From Porogramme epimiltina (lineage: Eukaryota; Basidiomycota; Agaricomycetes; Polyporales; Polyporaceae), in contig FTLJ01000758.1 of assembly GCA_900155495.1 (NCBI GenBank), positions 1 through 64,000 of the forward strand: DNA of 64,000 nt, in the 5' to 3' direction. Below, piece by piece: positions 5,155 through 56,343 of this stretch. Numbering within the stretch: position 1 is the stretch's first letter; the number at the start of each line of letters is the position of its first letter. The notes beneath the pieces are model-generated. The model ran no database searches, was not told where the DNA came from, and saw only the letters and a list, made by a program, of their open reading frames with translations. Both the position numbers and the translations under genes were made by a program.

Positions 5155-8100
5155 GTATTAGCCGACCGGCGTTCAAATGGCGCACAATTGAGGCGCCGCG
5201 CCCCTGTATGGCATCCCAGGCCACTAGCGCGTCGAAGCCAGCACCAGGAAATAGACCGGCGGAAGCTTGCGGAGGTCCGGGCCGGAACTCTCCTCGACCC
5301 GCGAATCCCACATTGCTCCCGTGCTCATCCTTGCGCCGTCCGGCATAGACCTCGCTGTCGGTCGGGACAAGGCTGAGGTTGAGTTGCCGCGGCGCGGCGT
5401 GTCCTCCGGTGTTCGTCCTGTGCTGTTCGAGTCGAGATCGTCCCCACCGAGTCGCCACCAAGGGTGCGTGGCTGGCGTGTTTGCACAGCCACGGCTCTGT
5501 TAAGAGCGTTCCGGGCATCAAGTTCTGATCACCACTGTGGTGGCAGCCACGGCTCTAGCTGCGTCGTGTCCACAGGGTCGTGACGGTGGAGTCACCGAGC
5601 GAGTCGGGCGGAGCTTGGTGGTTCGTGTCTTCTTAATTCCGCTAGATTTAGGGACGCGATTGTGGAGAATGGCAATGTAGAGGCTCCTTACTGCGGGAGA
5701 AGAAGCAGGAGAAGCGACAGTCTGATCGCTACTGGCGCGGTAGATTCAATTATATCAGCCACCTCAACAACGAAGTAGCAGCACCTTTCTGTTTGAACGT
5801 AGAAACCGCGTGACGTATAGCAGGGACGTTCGAAAGCATTTTACCATCCTTTCTGAGCACTGGTTTCCGGGGAGGGTTGGGAACCTGCGGAGAGCGCAAC
5901 TTGCCTGGGTAGGGATGGTACGGATTGCAGATCCACGGGTTCACTGGAGACGGTCAAAGAAGATGCCACGAGCATGTTCTAGTGTGGTTCCGAGAGAGGT
6001 AGAAATGAAGATCAGCTGAGCGTGCAATACGCCGACTGGAAAAAAAGCCATCTGCTCGTCAACCTTCTTTGCAACTCAGCTACCCACGTAAGTGCAGAAT
6101 TCCGCGAGCGGCGGAAAGACGGACGAACGGTTGAGACTAGTCCCTTGAATTTTTCCTCGTCAAAGGACGACTTTGCCTCGAACGCGTATCTATGATGTCG
6201 ACGAGAGTCTTGCGGCGGAGACAAGAGACTGGGCGCGGGTGGTTCGTTCTAAGTCGCCTTCCAAATCCGGCGGAGTCGACTCCGCGGCGGGATCCGAGAC
6301 CAGCCGGAAAAGGGTCCGGGAGCACAGCCGTGGGCGTCGAGTGACGATAGGTGACGATGGGCCACCGATCTGATTTTCCGACCGGGCGATTGGGACGGTG
6401 GTCTGCGCTGACGCAGTGACGCGACGCGGAGTGACGGCGGTGACCGTCCAGCGTTCGGCGCTCAGCGCTCAGCAGCCAGCTCCTGCCCCGCTCGACGGCC
6501 GACCCCCCGCAGGCGCCCGCTGGCACTCCCCGGCGAGCATCTTCCCATTCCAGCACACGCTCTCTCGTCCACCGCGGCATGCCCCGATCTCGCCCGCGCC
6601 CCTTCCCTCGCCGTTCCCTCGCCCGCGCTCGTCCCGCACTACAAATTCGCGCCAAATCACCCATCGCGCTATCGCTCTGCATCCGCGATCGTCCCCCGCC
6701 TTGAGAACGACGACAACGTTGAGAGGGGAACGCTGCTAGCGAGTTTCTCCAACAGAAACGACCCGCTGGAGGCGCTCATCACGGCGAAACGGCTGCGCGC
6801 CGCTGCGTCTGGTGTGTGCGCCATGCGTCGATGGGGCAAACATCGAGACCAGATCTCCCCGCAAAGTTCGGCGGCCCCGAAGCGGAAGGCTGTTTTCGGC
6901 CCCTCCTCAGCCTGGCCCGCAGCCGCCGCTCCTTCCTGCGACCACGGCAGGCGCGCGAATATTCAGTCGTCCGTGGCCTGCCGCCCCAGCCGTCCGTTTC
7001 TCGAGCGCGTCCTATTGACGTATCGCGCCCACCGTGCCGTAAGTCTGCAGCCCTCGCCCTCGCCGCGGGTGCCCCAACCAACTCTGCTGACGCACTCTAC
7101 CCACACACAGTCACCACAGCCCGTCCGCTGCGATGAGTCGTCTGCTAGCTCGTCGGCCTATTCCAGCGATAAGGGCCCATGACGCTGCGTCGTGAGCGCG
7201 CGCACCACATGCTCGCCCCGTCTTCTTCGAAAACGTGGGTCCGTCGTTCTCAGGAATGCCTTCGCCATATGGCATGCACTGATGATTGCGTTGCTGTCCC
7301 CCTAGCTCGTTCAGGCGAATGGCGGCGCGTGATTCTCATCACCATTCGTTGCTGCTAGCCTTTCGCTTGCTCTAGAGTTCCTCCAGATGTCGGAAGATGA
7401 CGTCGAAGCTCGTCTTTGCCCCGTATCCTCCGCTGACGGCAGAGCGTTGACGAAGCTGGTTTCCTCCCGCGCATGACTCGCACACTCTCAAGTAGGGTGC
7501 GGCAGCACCTTCTTTGTGCTGAGACCGGCGAGGGGACCCGCGTCATCTGGTATGAGATCCCGCGACTGCCCGCTCCTTTCTACCACGACGCATGCGTCCT
7601 CGGGCCCCACCGCCGGCCTGACAGATCATCACGCCTCCAGTCTGCACGCCCGCCGCGGTGTCTCTGACGTGCTCGAGGTCGACGCGGATCGATCTGTGCG
7701 TGCATGCGCGATTATCAGATAATACGACCTCTAACTCAAAGTTCGTTCACAGGAACAGCTGGCGATTGTTCTTCCAGCGTCGGAGTCCTCGTTGTGACCT
7801 ATCACGAGCCCCCGACGTCGTGCCTTGGTTTGTACTAGTACGACTAATAGACTCCTCGGACATCGGTCCTCGACGCTCGACTTTGCTGAGGACCCTCGTC
7901 GGAAGTGTATCCCGAATATGGCGTGTTCGTGTGGCTGGCCGAATGGCCATCCATTCTTTTGGCCCCTAAATGTCGTAAACTCATCTCGGCGATTACTACA
8001 ATGTGGACAGTGAATCTTCACCTTGTTCCTGTGAGCAGCGTTTCCTTTTGTTACTTCCCTGCGGGTGTACTAAGACTGCGGCACGATGTCGTAAACCGTG

Positions 8101-9278
8101 AACGGATCGTCTTCCATACAGCGAACCCCCGCCGTGCGTGTCCAGTGGCGCATCTAGGCCAACTCTGGCCACCGGGTTACTCACCGCCTCGAGCGCGCTC
8201 TTGGTGAGCCTCCTAACTTAAACCTCCTTCCATGTGCACACTGACCAGATCCGCTCGACGTGCTAGCCAAGGATGCAACTTACGCCGTTAGCACCCAGTC
8301 TGTGGCAGCATTGTTTCGGGACATCATTCAGTCGCTCTTCCGTGCCTAGCTTCGCAGCCCCACCGGCCGTCACTCTCCAGCAGTACCAGTCTGCTAAGGT
8401 CCGCCTTCTATCATACATCAGACCAAGCTCCTCCCGCCTTCGCGAACGTCTGGAAATACGAACACCGCCCATGTTCGTCCCCAAGCCCTCCCAGTCACCC
8501 TCGTGCCGAAGTGCCCCGAGGGCCAGCATCGGTCCTGTGCCGTCGTGCCTCCTCGCGCCCATTGGCCGACACCGACTCGTGGCCCGCTCTCGTTCACAGC
8601 CCACGAACAGCCCACAAATCAGAGCGGGGCGGCATGCCCGCAAGGCTCGCCCCCGGTCGGACGTAGATCCCGCGTCCCACATGCGCCCCCGCCCCGCACG
8701 CGCGAACGAGCGGCCAGGGCGACCCCGTGCCCCACCCCGCCGTCCGCGCCGCCGTTCCGCACCCTCAGCTCTTCTCCCGCCGGGGGACGCAGCCGCCGGA
8801 GGGGGCAGCCCTCACTCGGGCCTTGTGGCGGGTGCAAGCCGCCAGCGTCGGCCTCGAGGCTCGCATCCTACTTGCACTGCGCCCCCCGATCCCTTGTGTG
8901 ACCGCGTCCGCGTTCCCAGGGCCCGCTCACGCTCCCAGCGGTGCACAGCGTGACGCGCCGCCGCGCCGCCCTGGGCCTGGCCCGGTGCGCGGGTGCGGAG
9001 CCGGCATTCCCGTCTTAGTGCGCGCCGCGGCTTTCGCGGGCGTCGGCGCGCACTAGACATTCCTGGCAAGAGAGCACTCTCCACGCCGCCAGGACGCCGA
9101 GGCCGCGCGTTACGACAGGCCGCGCGTGCCGCGCGCCCCCGTGGCCCCCCCCCCCTCCTCGCGCCTGCGAACGGCGGCGGGCTGACAAGGGAGCGGAGGC
9201 TTGGGCGCCGCCGGCCAAGGCCCAAGGACGGGGGTGCGGCTCGCGCGCAGAGGAAGCGCGTCCTTGGTCCCCGCGCGC

Positions 9279-47980: not shown

Positions 47981-48478
47981 GAATTCGTGACCCTTTTCGC
48001 GGCGCGTTCGCAGCTCTCTTGCGTCGGTCGGGTCTTATAATGGGGAAAGGTGTGGGCGGTGAGAGCCAGGAGGCGAGAGGAAGAGGAGAGAGGAGGAGGA
48101 GGAACGTTCGTGACTGTCCGAAGGTTCCGAGCGCCCGATGTGCCGCCGCAGACGCGTCCCGTCTGCGGCGCGCGATTTCCGACGCAGCTTGGACCCGGAC
48201 GTCCACCGTCGATTTCTACGACACTGCGTGTCTCGCTCGTTGCGTAGCTAGAAGCAGTGCGACGAAATAGGTTCGTCTCAAGCTCTATCCCTTCGTCGTG
48301 CACTCGTCCTAAGCAGCCTCCAGGCTTATATGCAGATCCTCATTTCAGCTGAACGCTGTTGGCCGCACGCCCCTCTGCCTCGCGAAGGGCTCTGAATCAG
48401 GCGTTCTCCCCTTGCGGATTGGACCCTCACTTCATTGTGTTCCCCAGCGCCCCCCTCGCCCATATGCGTACGAATACA
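47981..48478. other. Intergenic region, presumed COA1 promoter
   Basis: 498 bp between the COA1 start and the DNA methyltransferase stop, same strand. CpG frequency is normal here. No other feature seen. Confidence 0.45.
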
Positions 48479-51400
48479 TCATTCTACCTCAGGGCTCTGT
48501 AGCCTTTCGTCATCCTCTCGGCTTCTCCTGCCACTCAAGTACTCGACATATGCTTTCCCAATCTCCTTTCCCAAGGCCAGTGCCAGAGGTACAGGTACGG
48601 CATTTCCGATTTGCCTGAGTTGCTGTTAGAGTTGTGTATGTGTCAGTTAAATATGGTGACTTGAAAGTAAAAGTTGGGCGACCTACATCCTCGATAACTT
48701 TGCTGACCTTCTTGTTGACTGACAGGAACTGATAGCTGTCCGGAAAGCCTTGTGCTCTTGCACACTCTCTGACAGTAAGTGCTCGCTTTTGCTGTCATAT
48801 TAGGTGAGTGTGTGCATCCCCTAAAATGGTACATAGCACTCACATTAGGGTGAAGTACCTTGCTTGCCATTGCATTAGGAAGCACTTTAGTCATTGCAGT
48901 GACAAAATGGCCATTCCCATCCAGCCTCCCATAGATATCTGCTGTGTGTTAGAGATTTGACTGCTGTGGGTTATTGTGTGCTCACCATATCTCTTCCGAG
49001 TCTTGTCCTCGGAGTCTTGCAGTTCCAAGGGAATGTCTAATTAAGATGAGGTAAGGAGTTGTCTAGTAACTTGTTAGTTCTTTAACTGACCTTTATAATA
49101 AGCATCTGGTCTTAAGGGAACATTGACAGATCTATCAGGAAACACTATAAGAGGTGATGCTCATAGGCTCAAATTAAGCATTAGCTGGCTTACCTTTCTA
49201 CAACAAGTGCAGGATACCTCCTTGTGTAGTGATATTTGACAGCATCATTATCCAAAGTCCTCATCCATTGCTGGTAGCGAGTCAATGGAGGTGTGTGTTG
49301 GTAGGAGGTGGAGTCCTTGAACCCTGATAGAGAGAGAGATTCAGACACTACAGCATCAAGGCATGGAATGCCCAGCTCCAAGCGCTTAGAGTCTTCAGCA
49401 TGCTGCCTCTTTGATCTGGGCAGTATGTGATGAGGGTCTTTCCTAAAACCTAGGTCAGCACATAGGAAATATGCAAGGGGGTTAAACCATAGCCTACCAG
49501 TCAAAACTAGGCTGTGGAATGCTAAAATCAGCTAACAAAGGGGTTAAGTTGTAGGTTCACATACCAAGTCCCCAATGGCATCATTCACTGTAACAGCTGG
49601 AAGAGGGGCACATTGATGGCCTTCCTCAAAGCAACCTGAACGAAAAGGGGGATACAGTATATCACCTGTTGGCAGCCTGTGCTTCCTAACAGATTTGGGG
49701 TATGCATATTGGGGGACAGGAAACTTAGGCAAGGGCACATCCCTTCTAGCCCCCAAGAATATAACTCTGGATCGACCTTGAGGGGAGCCATGTTGGCCAG
49801 CTTGCAGTATTTGGAACTGGACCTGGTACCTGTAAGTTACTTCTCAGCATATAAATGGAATAGCTTTTATAAGCTAAGATCACCCAAGGCCAGTGAGAGT
49901 CCTAATGATAAACTTGACTATTCCCATCTTGACACCTTCCTTTAGTTCAACTTGTTCAGCTTCTGCTCTCTCTCCAAGAGAATAGCTGAGAAGTCCTTGA
50001 ACATTCTCTAAGAGAAAGAAAAGGGGCCTATAGAACTCCACATAGGAGATCATATTGCAAACCAAAGTACTCCTGAAAAGTTTGCTCAATGCATTCACAT
50101 AAAAATGCCAGTTATATAGAATAAAGCACCTTTGGTCATCTGGCCTCTAAATTGGACATTGTTTTGAGTTTCAGACAGGATATATATGTGATGGTCACTT
50201 ACCTTGTGAAAGTTCATTTGAGAGAAACTCTGGCAAGGTGGTCCTATTTACAATCATAGGTTAGTAATCATAGGAAGGTGACCTAATCCAAAACACACAC
50301 CTCCAAATATAAAATCAACCTCTCCCCTTTGAGGCATTGGTGGAAGAGCTCTAGACTGATCATGGCTTTTGAGGGGCAATGGTCTTCTTCCTTCAGCAGT
50401 GTCAATAGCATGCTGTAGCAGGCAATTGGAGCACAAATCATATACAGTTGCAGTTGGATGGTTTGCCCTAAGCACCACAAATAAGCATAAATCAGCTATA
50501 TATCAGGTTGTGCTCACTGGAATGTCTTAGCTGCACTTGGAGAGAATTCCACGGCCCAATGTGTCTCAATGTAACCAGATAGATGAAAGCCTGTTGACAG
50601 GCCACCTGCACCTATATAAGGGTCAGCCTTGAGTTCCCACACAGATCCAGTGCTTACCTGCAAAGAGGTCCAGTCCCCTCAGCTTGTGGAAACTTTGAAG
50701 CATGTTCTCCTTGAGCAAAAGACTATGTTGTAGGGCTGCATGGCACTTGTCACATTGTGGAATGAAAGGAGGGGAGAGGGGCTCCAGGAAGCCAGATTGA
50801 GGAGATATAGCTTGCAGATCACAATAAAAATGATCATCCTCCTGAACCCAGCTTTCCTGCTCTGAAGGGGACAAGGTGCAAGTAACAAAGGCCTTTCCCT
50901 CAATGGTAGAAGGTGCCACCAAGGTTGTGACCTTTGTCCTGAATAGTCTCCTCTAATATAGGATTAGTATAAGCCACTATATGAAATAATCTACTTACAT
51001 TATCTTGGTACAGGAGAGTGTCAGCTTGCTGAGCCACATGATCATAGCGACCATATTGGAGAACTTTGATCTCTCCAACTTGACCAGGCTTGCTGCCAGT
51101 AAATTCAATGATCTGTCCAATGTCAAGTAGGCCCCCACTTGTGCAGTGGATGTACACAAAGTCATTGACATGGTAGTTGATTCCCTGGTGCACAAAACCA
51201 CCCCCTGGTAAGGATTGCCAATTTTTCTTGTGTGCTTGCATCTCCTTGTAACCACATGCCACACAAGGCTGGTGAGGGTCACAGAGAGCCAGGGCTTCCT
51301 CCTCCTGTTTAGGAGACAACTGAAGGAAAGCATTGGTGCTGGAATCTAGGGTGAGGCTAACATATAATTAGCATGTGCGTTGCATAGTAGAATAGATGGT

Positions 51401-53029
51401 TTAAAAACCCTGTGAAGAAGAGATTGGGGGTTTCATCTTCATGAGGGTCATTGAGGGGCTCCACCTCTTGGATTGGCCAAGGGACTGTGTTGCAGTGAGA
51501 GTATATGCATTCTAGGGAAAGGTCATCACACTCATTAAGCCAGAAGAGTGCTCTAGAATGTGAGGATTCTTGCAACACAGTCCTTGAGCCATGCTCCAAC
51601 CACTGGGCATGGAAGCACTTCACTCCCTTTTTCTCGAAGAGGAAGCAAATCTTGCAAAACCTACAGAACAGTTAAAGGGGAGCATCTTAAAGAAGGACAA
51701 TACACACCACCACTTATTAGCAAGCTCATTTTGACGGCATTGAGCTTGTTCAGATTCAGCATTCCTAGCTCTCTGCTTGTGGACATCTTCTCCTGGTTGC
51801 ACCATAATGATGTCACCAACCTGCAGCAGAGTTAATGGAAGCCTGAAGACAGAATATTATGCAGACAACATACTGTATAAGTTATACCATCAATAGATAC
51901 ACTATTGTAGAAATGCTTGGTGCTGGCAGCACTGCCCCATGTCATCTTCAGGGGATTAGCACGATGGGTGGCACGTGTTGTTGATAGGGAAGCCGGACAA
52001 GGCCCACTCTCATCCAAGTCCACAACATGCAGGTCCTGAGAGAAAAGCTGTTTGGCAACTGACGCGACCTTGGGGGCTACCACCGTGGCACAGTGCTGTC
52101 GGAGGACAACTTTCTCTATAGCCATTGTCCTTTTTGGGTGGAGACAGAATCGGGACATTGGCGGAGCTAGAGAGGGACCTAGCTGCTTCACTATTTTAGA
52201 CTTGGAGAGGATCTTGAAAGAGGCTTGCTGGTCCACAGAGAAGCCTTCTAGGACTTGAGTGAAGTATGCCACCTGTATAGTTATGAGTCATGGAATATCG
52301 GCAGATGCAAATGGCGAGCGTACAAACTCCGGGGACTGTGTATCTGGAGGACATTGTTGGGAAGGAAAGGACTTAAGGGCTTCAATCAGCGTGGCGGAAG
52401 GGTCCGCTAGGGCCATGGTGAGGAGGTGGTGCACGAGGGTATGATGGCGCGTCAGAGTGTCGAAGCACCGAGCGTATGCTTTACTCGGATTTCTCAGAAT
52501 ATACCAAGCATGAGCCGTCCTGACGTAGATCCTCCTGGGACGCCGTGAGTGCAGTGTCAAGATTGATGCTTAGAGATTACAAGGCTTACCCGTCTAAACT
52601 GAGAGACCCGTTGTCCGCGGAGATATGGTGGACGTTGCATTCGAGCACGTCAGAGAGCCGCACTTCAACGCCCATGTTTCGCGACCGCCAGCGTTTTTCC
52701 TGATCTTCGCTGTAGGAATACGCATCCCCTGTGCCGTGCACGGGATCGCGTAAATGGCCAACGAGGATATCAAAGAGAGGCGTCCATTCCGATGTTTCCG
52801 AGCTGTAGAAAGCGAAATTGTCCAACGACCGTACGGGTATGTCGTCCCAGTTCTCGCCGGCAGTAGTCTCCGATAGCGGAGTCTCTCCCGGGAGTTCTAA
52901 CGCCGCGTCCTCGAATACTTCGTGAGAACGATTTTAGTATATGACCGACCAAAATTCGGTGGCGGGCCGCGCCACGGTGGGCTCACCTGGTGACGGGGGA
53001 CTATGAAACCGAACCGAAAACGTCAACAT
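48479..53029 (-). CDS. DNMT1-type DNA (cytosine-5) methyltransferase with RFTS and BAH domains
   Basis: Complement join 48479-48622, 48687-48791, 48844-48938, 48986-49036, 49091-49131, 49194-49442, 49498-49511, 49565-49829, 49884-50072, 50130-50146, 50203-50243, 50301-50467, 50518-50611, 50658-50952, 50999-51356, 51409-51660, 51708-51820, 51874-52272, 52324-52534, 52590-52917, 52987-53029; at least 1156 aa. Order: RFTS-like region (DDIPVRSLDNFAFYSSETSE, IYVRTAHAWYIL), BAH1 (YTVGDIIMVQPGED), BAH2 (NYHVNDFVYIHC), catalytic domain. Motifs are intact: I LDLFAGAGGLSTGF (~663), IV GGPPCQSFSQMNF (Cys ~757), VI LENVQ (~795), VIII QAGQHGSPQGRSRVIFLG, X RQIGNAVPVPLA (~1114). It should maintain CpG methylation after replication. 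Micro-exons of 17 and 14 nt. The ATG at 53029 is the simplest start; upstream non-AUG-initiated or extra 5' exons to about 53345 are possible. The middle of the gene is almost free of CpG. Confidence 0.9.
49021..51960. other. CpG-depleted block inside the DNA methyltransferase gene
   Basis: By hand count there are nine CpG in about 2940 bp (near 49278, 49383, 49641, 49773, 50552, 51048, 51378, 51635, 51735), at roughly 40-45% GC. Just outside (51961 onward and below 49000) CpG returns to several per 120 bp. Both introns and exons are affected. Arginine inside the block is coded almost only by AGA/AGG, whereas the 5' exons use CGN freely. TG and CA are conspicuously common. Confidence 0.85.
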
Positions 53030-53579
53030 TTCTGTGAGATGACCGTTGTGTACAGTATAAAACCGACCTTCTATGTCGTTTTCTTGAAGGAACTTGGACC
53101 CAGACCCGAGCCGTGGAGACGTGACTCTGTGTCATCTGCGCTGGGTGAGCATACGAATAAGAATTTTTAGTGACTCTACTAACCGGCTTACACGTGTATT
53201 GCAGAGATTCGGAGTAAACGTGGCGGGGTGGAAGGCTACTTCAAATCCTGTATACAACGGAATCAGGTCCTGAGCTTCAACTTCAAGCCCTTGAGTGACA
53301 CATCTCCGTCCTTACGGTGGTGCGGCACTCAAAGAGAATTTACGAGAGGACAAAGTCGGCGATCGCGAGCATTGCGGACGTACCAAACCAAATTTTGGAA
53401 GGGCTGTGCGTGGTTGAAAGTGGATGGAGGCGAAGAAAGAACGGGCGCTTACACGGTTCAAGACGCGTGCCAGGACGCGTCCTGTCACAGTCACCCTCAC
53501 CCTTCGTCACTCTCACCCTTCGACCACTCTCTCTCCCTGCCTCCCCACGCGTCCACCCCCACCCTACGCGTCGTTCACG
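53030..53579. promoter_or_regulatory. Divergent region between DNA methyltransferase and MCM7
   Basis: About 550 bp head-to-head. On the minus strand, segments up to about 53345 splice in frame onto the methyltransferase exon at 52987-53029 (for example QYT|VTSPRLGSGSKFLQENDIE|EMLTF), but no ATG begins them, so they may be 5' coding exons whose start I could not place. The MCB cluster lies at the MCM7 end. Confidence 0.4.
53463..53571. promoter_or_regulatory. Cluster of four ACGCGT (MCB) elements in the DNMT/MCM7 divergent promoter
   Basis: ACGCGT occurs at 53463-53468, 53475-53480, 53547-53552 and 53566-53571, the last ending 8 bp before the MCM7 ATG. ACGCGT is the binding site of MBF-type (Mbp1/Swi6) factors that drive G1/S genes in ascomycete yeasts and is palindromic, so it can serve both directions. 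Basidiomycetes have homologous APSES factors; their use here is inference. Confidence 0.6.

Positions 53580-56343
<2,764 letters not shown>

Follow-up and report, generated by a model that had tools for sequence, protein, structure and literature searches.

Loss of CpG across the body of a DNMT1 gene in Porogramme epimiltina suggests long-term methylation of a methyltransferase gene

We analyzed a stretch of 64,000 nucleotides of the basidiomycete Porogramme epimiltina (hereafter the window), which lies within contig C599 (83,136 bp) of a genome of 41.9 Mb in 926 contigs, and focused on a DNA methyltransferase gene of the DNMT1 type, here DNMT1a, whose body is nearly devoid of CpG. The gene lies on the minus strand, which corrects an earlier note on this DNA (hereafter the original prediction), and its 21 modelled exons run from 53031 to 48479. 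The start codon is likely further upstream, at the ATG 53135-53133, because the peptide VWVQVPSRKR (around 53111-53073) matches the N-termini of orthologues, if weakly (E 0.06-1); with this probable start, the gene spans 48479-53135. The model reads as one open frame with 1156 codons, and each of its 20 introns is of the GT-AG type, in agreement with the intact frame and splice sites described originally. The protein combines a replication foci domain (RFD), two BAH domains, and a C5 cytosine methylase that is complete according to Pfam (matches to PF12047, 26.1 bits for a cut-off of 22; PF01426, 60.8 bits in two stretches; PF00145, 185.7 bits), which is the DNMT1-RFD (Masc2a) architecture. 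On the minus strand, the RFD exons are found at 52324-52917, those of the BAH domains approximately at 50658-51820, and those of the methylase at 48479-50700 (residues 660-1132 of the model). The methylase domain carries the stretches FAGAGGLS, GGPPCQSFS, ENVQG, QGRSR, and GNAVP, which we take to be catalytic motifs. The motifs had been described as intact, and indeed all these stretches are present and, over the whole gene, the 24 columns with Arg in at least 60% of the scored orthologues (hereafter conserved Arg columns) are all Arg in DNMT1a. As read here, the gene is intact, both in its frame and in its catalytic motifs.

The region 49021-51960 of this gene has 9 CpG for 144.6 expected from base composition, i.e., an observed/expected ratio (O/E) of 0.06. 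The original counts of nine CpG in this region, and five in 49801-51960, were exact, whereas the expectation had been put somewhat too low, at around 130. In the same region TpG and CpA are in excess, with O/E of 1.29 and 1.38 (1.03 and 1.04 in the whole window). A two-state maximum-likelihood fit, run within 46-56 kb, placed the limits of the depleted block at 48612 and 52291 (log-likelihood gain of 186), with 24 CpG for 187 expected (O/E of 0.13). The share of CG among the CG, TG, and CA dinucleotides is 3.8% inside the fitted block and 41.7% outside. In the core of this desert (48785-51960) the introns are as depleted as the exons, with one CpG in 841 bp (O/E of 0.03) and 10 CpG in 2335 bp (O/E of 0.08), respectively. 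The edges are graded on both sides, instead of abrupt as initially described: a partly depleted shoulder lies upstream at 51961-52299 (12 CG among the 69 CG, TG, and CA at 51960-52330), and another one downstream, in the last exons at 48500-48790, where the 200-bp O/E values from 48501 on are 0.64, 0.52, and 0.19. The block had been thought to end near 49000 and to extend from the BAH domains through most of the catalytic domain. The BAH domains are inside, but the fitted limit is at 48612 and the depletion reaches the last exons, such that the block takes in almost the entire catalytic domain. The RFD exons have normal CpG (exonic O/E of 1.24 at 52300-53031). Relative to the gene, the desert begins around 0.85 kb past the probable start codon and fades just upstream of the stop, and the flanking DNA is spared. 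The intron 51357-51408, which is inside the desert, has a weak donor (GTTTTT) and was called from frame continuity.

As controls, we used the window outside 48401-52400 and 20 loci of the same genome, amounting to 259 kb. The mean O/E of control windows of 500 bp (n=517) is 1.05 and their minimum is 0.478, while the minimum among overlapping windows of 2.9 kb (n=408) is 0.742. The longest distance from one CpG to another is 779 bp in the block, compared with 146 bp in the controls. Eleven CpG survive in the core, between 48997 and 51735. Five of them (49278, 49383, 49641, 49773, and 51048) are in CGN codons of conserved Arg, the residue being Arg in 52/61, 58/61, 55/62, 61/62, and 57/61 orthologues, respectively. 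Two others (48997 and 51735) are in CGN codons of non-conserved Arg, three (49010, 50552, and 51635) span codon joints, and one (51378) is intronic. In other words, of the 10 coding CpG that persist there, half belong to Arg codons at positions where 85-98% of the orthologues have this residue.

Deamination of 5-methylcytosine at CpG leaves TpG or CpA. Among the codon-final pyrimidines of the block, we found 3 C and 110 T before G, and 180 C and 144 T (56% C) before A, C, or T. The same count gives 56% C before G and 60% before other bases in the undepleted 5' part of DNMT1a, and 72% and 74% in the drafted DNMT5 gene of this genome. This test of sequence context rules out a general drift towards AT and methylation outside CpG. 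The block has no NCG codon and 53 NCA codons, and its exons have 204 TpG and 201 CpA, an equal excess without strand bias. Codon usage is also ruled out as an explanation, since the introns are equally depleted. Taking as baseline the 5 kb of flank at 52.4-57.4 kb, and as sample of the block 48901-51950, CpG go from 0.088 to 0.0036 per bp, TpG and CpA together from 0.127 to 0.166 per bp, and GC from 54% to 44%. What happened in DNMT1a is a CpG-specific decay of C to T, on both strands and in introns and exons alike, and the pattern is broadly that left by deamination of 5-methylcytosine at CpG.

The codons of Arg provide information on selection and on time. In the block, 31 of the 39 Arg codons are AGR, as had been noticed originally. 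All 18 conserved Arg columns of the block are still Arg, 12 as AGR and 6 as CGN. For comparison, the draft model of DNMT5 in this genome has 85 such columns, of which 79 are Arg (77 CGN and 2 AGR), and the share of AGR differs markedly between the two genes (12/18 vs 2/79, Fisher p 2e-9). Transitions at CpG change a CGN codon of Arg into that of another residue or into a stop, and recoding to AGR thus needs slow transversions under constant selection. The exposure would thus have been long, which speaks against a burst. Hence, the codons support a protein that would have been under purifying selection throughout the loss of CpG, and a loss that would have lasted long. The mutational reading given originally, of CpG decay with the protein under selection, is backed by the codon-end test, the depletion of introns, and the kept Arg, and the conserved Arg codons that became AGR speak for its long duration.

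To place the desert in its genome, we surveyed the window and 293 kb of loci (overlaps counted), i.e., around 0.8% of the 41.9 Mb. Leaving out windows of 500 bp with less than 30 C or G, or more than 50 N, 23 of the 1108 overlapping windows of these loci have an O/E below 0.45, all of them in the Copia-bearing loci L044-L047 (contigs C301 and C560). They include a desert of approximately 3.2 kb beside a Copia fragment (C560:2050-5250, in locus L047, C560:1-6000), where O/E is mostly 0-0.3. Its sequence matches 27 places in the genome, itself included, with long matches mostly at 74-80%. Since these matches are on many contigs, the sequence is repetitive, as would be expected of a methylation target, and the presence of the same decay there indicates that this genome loses CpG in this way at repeats. 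The scar is thus common to repeats and to one DNMT1 gene within the part of the genome surveyed. The reverse-transcriptase part of the Copia fragment is undepleted, and in the Copia locus L044 (C301, around 5359-9090) O/E is 0.31-0.39 at both ends and higher in the middle. Across the 23 reverse-transcriptase loci, whole-locus O/E ranges from 0.69 to 1.42. In the RVT_1 retroelement loci L024-L043, most of which have open frames, CpG is normal or high (0.80-1.42), and they may therefore be young elements that have not yet decayed, or elements that are not methylated.

The other genes related to methylation have normal CpG where they were read. DNMT5, with its methylase and SNF2 parts (L006, C126, around 2-9.4 kb), has an O/E of about 1.1; near its N-terminus we observed the stretch QKPITSFF, which we take to resemble a PCNA-binding box. 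The second DNMT1 gene, DNMT1b (L050, C704:26950-28800), has an O/E of 1.04 across the 1851 bp read, two pieces of 200 bp being at around 0.47; it matches the DNMT1 query of Lentinus at 34-50%, and its PCQ motif, read by eye, is apparently split by an intron. Two SRA-domain loci have values of 0.71-1.46 in windows of 250 bp. A depletion of the whole epigenetic machinery is thus ruled out: of the two DNMT1 genes found, just one has the desert, and DNMT5 is free of it.

These data bear on whether the desert could be an ordinary collateral effect. In that case, many single-copy genes would be, or would once have been, body-methylated or silenced in facultative heterochromatin, and DNMT1a would be one of them by chance, with the same chemistry and without self-targeting. 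The small fraction of the genome covered by our survey leaves room for such genes, DNMT1a may have been singled out in the original prediction for its name, and the available text on Pleurotus describes genic regions, chiefly near transposons, as somewhat methylated (PMC5974365). We nevertheless regard this explanation as unlikely, given the confinement of low windows to the Copia-bearing loci and the normal CpG of DNMT1b, DNMT5, and the two SRA-domain loci. In addition, contig C599 has no RVT_1 or RVT_2 (two reverse-transcriptase families) among the matches listed. The neighbors of DNMT1a are the divergent MCM7 gene, on the plus strand at approximately 53602-56248 (Pfam matches from 54581 on) and with normal CpG, a gene for an E1-dehydrogenase, around 2 kb downstream, and one for a proprotein convertase, around 4 kb upstream.

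Repeat-induced point mutation (RIP) targets duplicated DNA and leaves strand-biased runs and nonsense codons. A search of the genome found no second copy or relic of the DNMT1a block, and DNMT1b, the sole paralogue found, has normal CpG in the part read. TpG and CpA are balanced in the block, there is no in-frame stop, and the loss of CpG is near saturation. A past episode directed at repeats, either methylation of a duplicate or RIP-like mutation, followed by the loss of the second copy of DNMT1a, could still be conceived. According to the text available for these studies, most of the basidiomycetes surveyed have 1-3 DNMT1 genes (PMC7862722), and the agaricomycete Rhizoctonia solani AG8 shows RIP-like mutation from C to T that is biased to CpG and affects coding regions, as in DNMT1a (PMC4014442). 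However, the limits of the block track the gene and its edges are graded, DNMT1b is CpG-normal and diverged, and a burst should have struck the conserved Arg, which were kept and mostly recoded to AGR. We give such an episode only a slim chance.

We compared relatives from their proteins only, and the families named are those to which we presume the species to belong. The closest named orthologue of DNMT1a is that of Epithele typhae (50% identity over 96%), followed by those of Lentinus, Daedaleopsis, Dichomitus, Cerioporus, Ganoderma, Trametes, and others, with identities of 44-50% within Polyporaceae. We built trees of the N-terminal, BAH, and catalytic parts of DNMT1 and of DNMT5 for 35 species, using fast searches without support values; 3 of the 37 pairs were dropped and rows less than half filled were left out. 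In both the tree of the DNMT1 catalytic part and that of DNMT5, this genome is placed beside Epithele. This makes it barely credible that the CpG-poor stretch came by horizontal transfer, gene conversion, or misassembly. Its GC is indeed 8-16 points below that of three flanking stretches, but the frame runs across both edges and codon-final C without a following G matches the 5' part in frequency, so that a foreign donor would have to differ in CpG alone. The original prediction had mentioned two alternatives, namely conversion or transfer from a copy poor in CpG, and a former location in a methylated neighborhood; both are disfavored by these trees, the codon-end C, the failure to find a second copy of the block, and the CpG-normal neighbors such as MCM7.

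In the trees, the rate of DNMT1 evolution compared with that of DNMT5 is higher in Polyporaceae than in Boletales, Agaricales, and other Polyporales. The median DNMT1/DNMT5 distance ratios are 6.05 (N-terminal), 4.85 (BAH), and 3.7 (catalytic) in Polyporaceae, and 2.15-4.87, 1.73-2.94, and 1.63-2.15, respectively, in the three other groups. A slow DNMT5 in Polyporaceae would produce the same ratios. An acceleration specific to the block was not upheld, as the undepleted N-terminal part is accelerated too. We also computed the fraction Arg/(Arg+Cys/His/Gln/Trp) for the DNMT1 block and subtracted from it the fraction for DNMT5. This difference is -0.149 in this genome. The 14 Polyporaceae, among which this species is counted, have a median of -0.127, compared with -0.087 for 24 other species (one-sided p 1.7e-4, relatedness not corrected). 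The lowest values are those of Epithele (-0.199), Dentipellis (-0.198), and Steccherinum (-0.176), and the exceptions are Trametes sanguinea (-0.038) and two Mycena (around 0). Ganoderma leucocontextum, which lacks a DNMT5 partner in the set, has the lowest DNMT1 fraction among the proteins scored (0.176).

Considering these results, we infer that methylation caused the loss of CpG. It is quite probable that the body of DNMT1a was methylated at CpG in the germ line for a long time, and that its mutable CpG decayed to TpG and CpA while purifying selection preserved the sequence of the enzyme; the gene body may still be methylated today. The footprint has the shape expected from gene-body methylation, i.e., CpG depletion with an excess of TpG and CpA over the transcribed body, a spared 5' end, and a fading before the stop. 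If, as a further step, methylation of this gene body were maintained by the very enzyme that it encodes, the level of the enzyme and the methylation of the genome could sense each other. Such self-targeting feedback on DNMT1a is plausible.

Several points weigh against this reading. Its basis is the mutation pattern. Gene-body methylation has reportedly been mostly lost in fungi, according to the accessible part of PMC13297926, with exceptions in ascomycetes described in that of PMC7862722. The absence of other gene deserts in the 259 kb of controls, which contain around 86 genes at an assumed density, is compatible with up to 3.4% of the genes having one. As the N-terminal part of DNMT1 is also fast, hypermutation in the block cannot be taken as the cause of this protein's speed. 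Furthermore, the rise of TpG and CpA (0.039 per bp) covers around half of the drop of CpG (0.084 per bp), which means that the remainder has changed further or that the baseline differs. Finally, the 12 AGR among 18 conserved Arg exceed a simple neutral expectation of 0.39, a rough one based on the composition of the introns of the block (p 0.018), and mutation alone does not explain this excess.

The last two points would fit selection against CpG itself, where a gene targeted by silencing loses CpG beyond mutation pressure because alleles poorer in CpG escape, as the transversions to AGR are not supplied by deamination. The excess of AGR hints at some selection of this kind, weakly given the 18 sites and the rough model of composition. 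As the account of the whole desert it has a small chance of being right: the TpG and CpA products are present at synonymous sites and in introns, and it presupposes methylation.

Long-term methylation of DNMT1a would have parallels and differences in known systems. Gene-body CpG methylation in animals and plants shows the same loss of CpG over the body of intact genes with a spared 5' end. There it concerns a class of many genes, whereas here it concerns a single gene in the stretches surveyed, and this gene is the methyltransferase. DNMT1a can also be likened to the ROS1 rheostat (PMC4380477) and the methylated intron of IBM1 (PMC11265718) of Arabidopsis, described in the available texts as chromatin-marking genes whose own methylated DNA can report the methylation state. 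In these sensors the mark lies on the gene of an eraser (demethylase), and experiments demonstrated the regulation, whereas DNMT1a is a writer known from sequence. Methylation in basidiomycetes is described as mainly at CpG, with a concentration in transposons and with DNMT1 and DNMT5 as the enzymes that maintain it (available parts of PMC7862722, PMC5974365, and PMC13297926). DNMT1a has the RFD, two BAH, and C5 methylase of the DNMT1/Masc2a enzymes of Agaricomycetes, and is one of two DNMT1 beside DNMT5/Rad8; the accessible texts on these enzymes (PMC5974365, PMC7862722) do not mention a CpG desert of the gene. Among the matches listed from the open-access literature, we found no report of a CpG-depleted or self-methylated DNMT gene in fungi.

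Gene-body methylation is thought to have mostly disappeared from fungi, perhaps on account of the mutations that it brings to coding DNA, and here a selected gene without a second copy found appears to have borne this mutational cost to saturation. If methylation is confirmed, this would be a fungal writer gene carrying its own mark, and a CpG desert together with recoding of Arg to AGR would be a fossil readable in sequence, for which fungal genomes could be scanned in search of self-regulation of the methylation machinery. A bolder and rather doubtful proposal is that DNMT1a of Polyporaceae serves as its own methylation sensor, its self-methylated body tuning expression, with DNMT1b and DNMT5 exempt and the arrangement conserved. 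If so, the desert should be conserved across Polyporaceae. The proteins then predict low CpG in the DNMT1 genes of Epithele typhae, Ganoderma leucocontextum, and Trametes maxima, as well as of Dentipellis and Steccherinum, and normal CpG in those of Trametes sanguinea, Phlebiopsis, and Mycena.

The genome also has TET/JBP-like matches at C356:21558-21968, C642:13786-14025, and C369:9751-10146, one of which is above the family cut-off. They represent a possible eraser of 5-methylcytosine in this genome.

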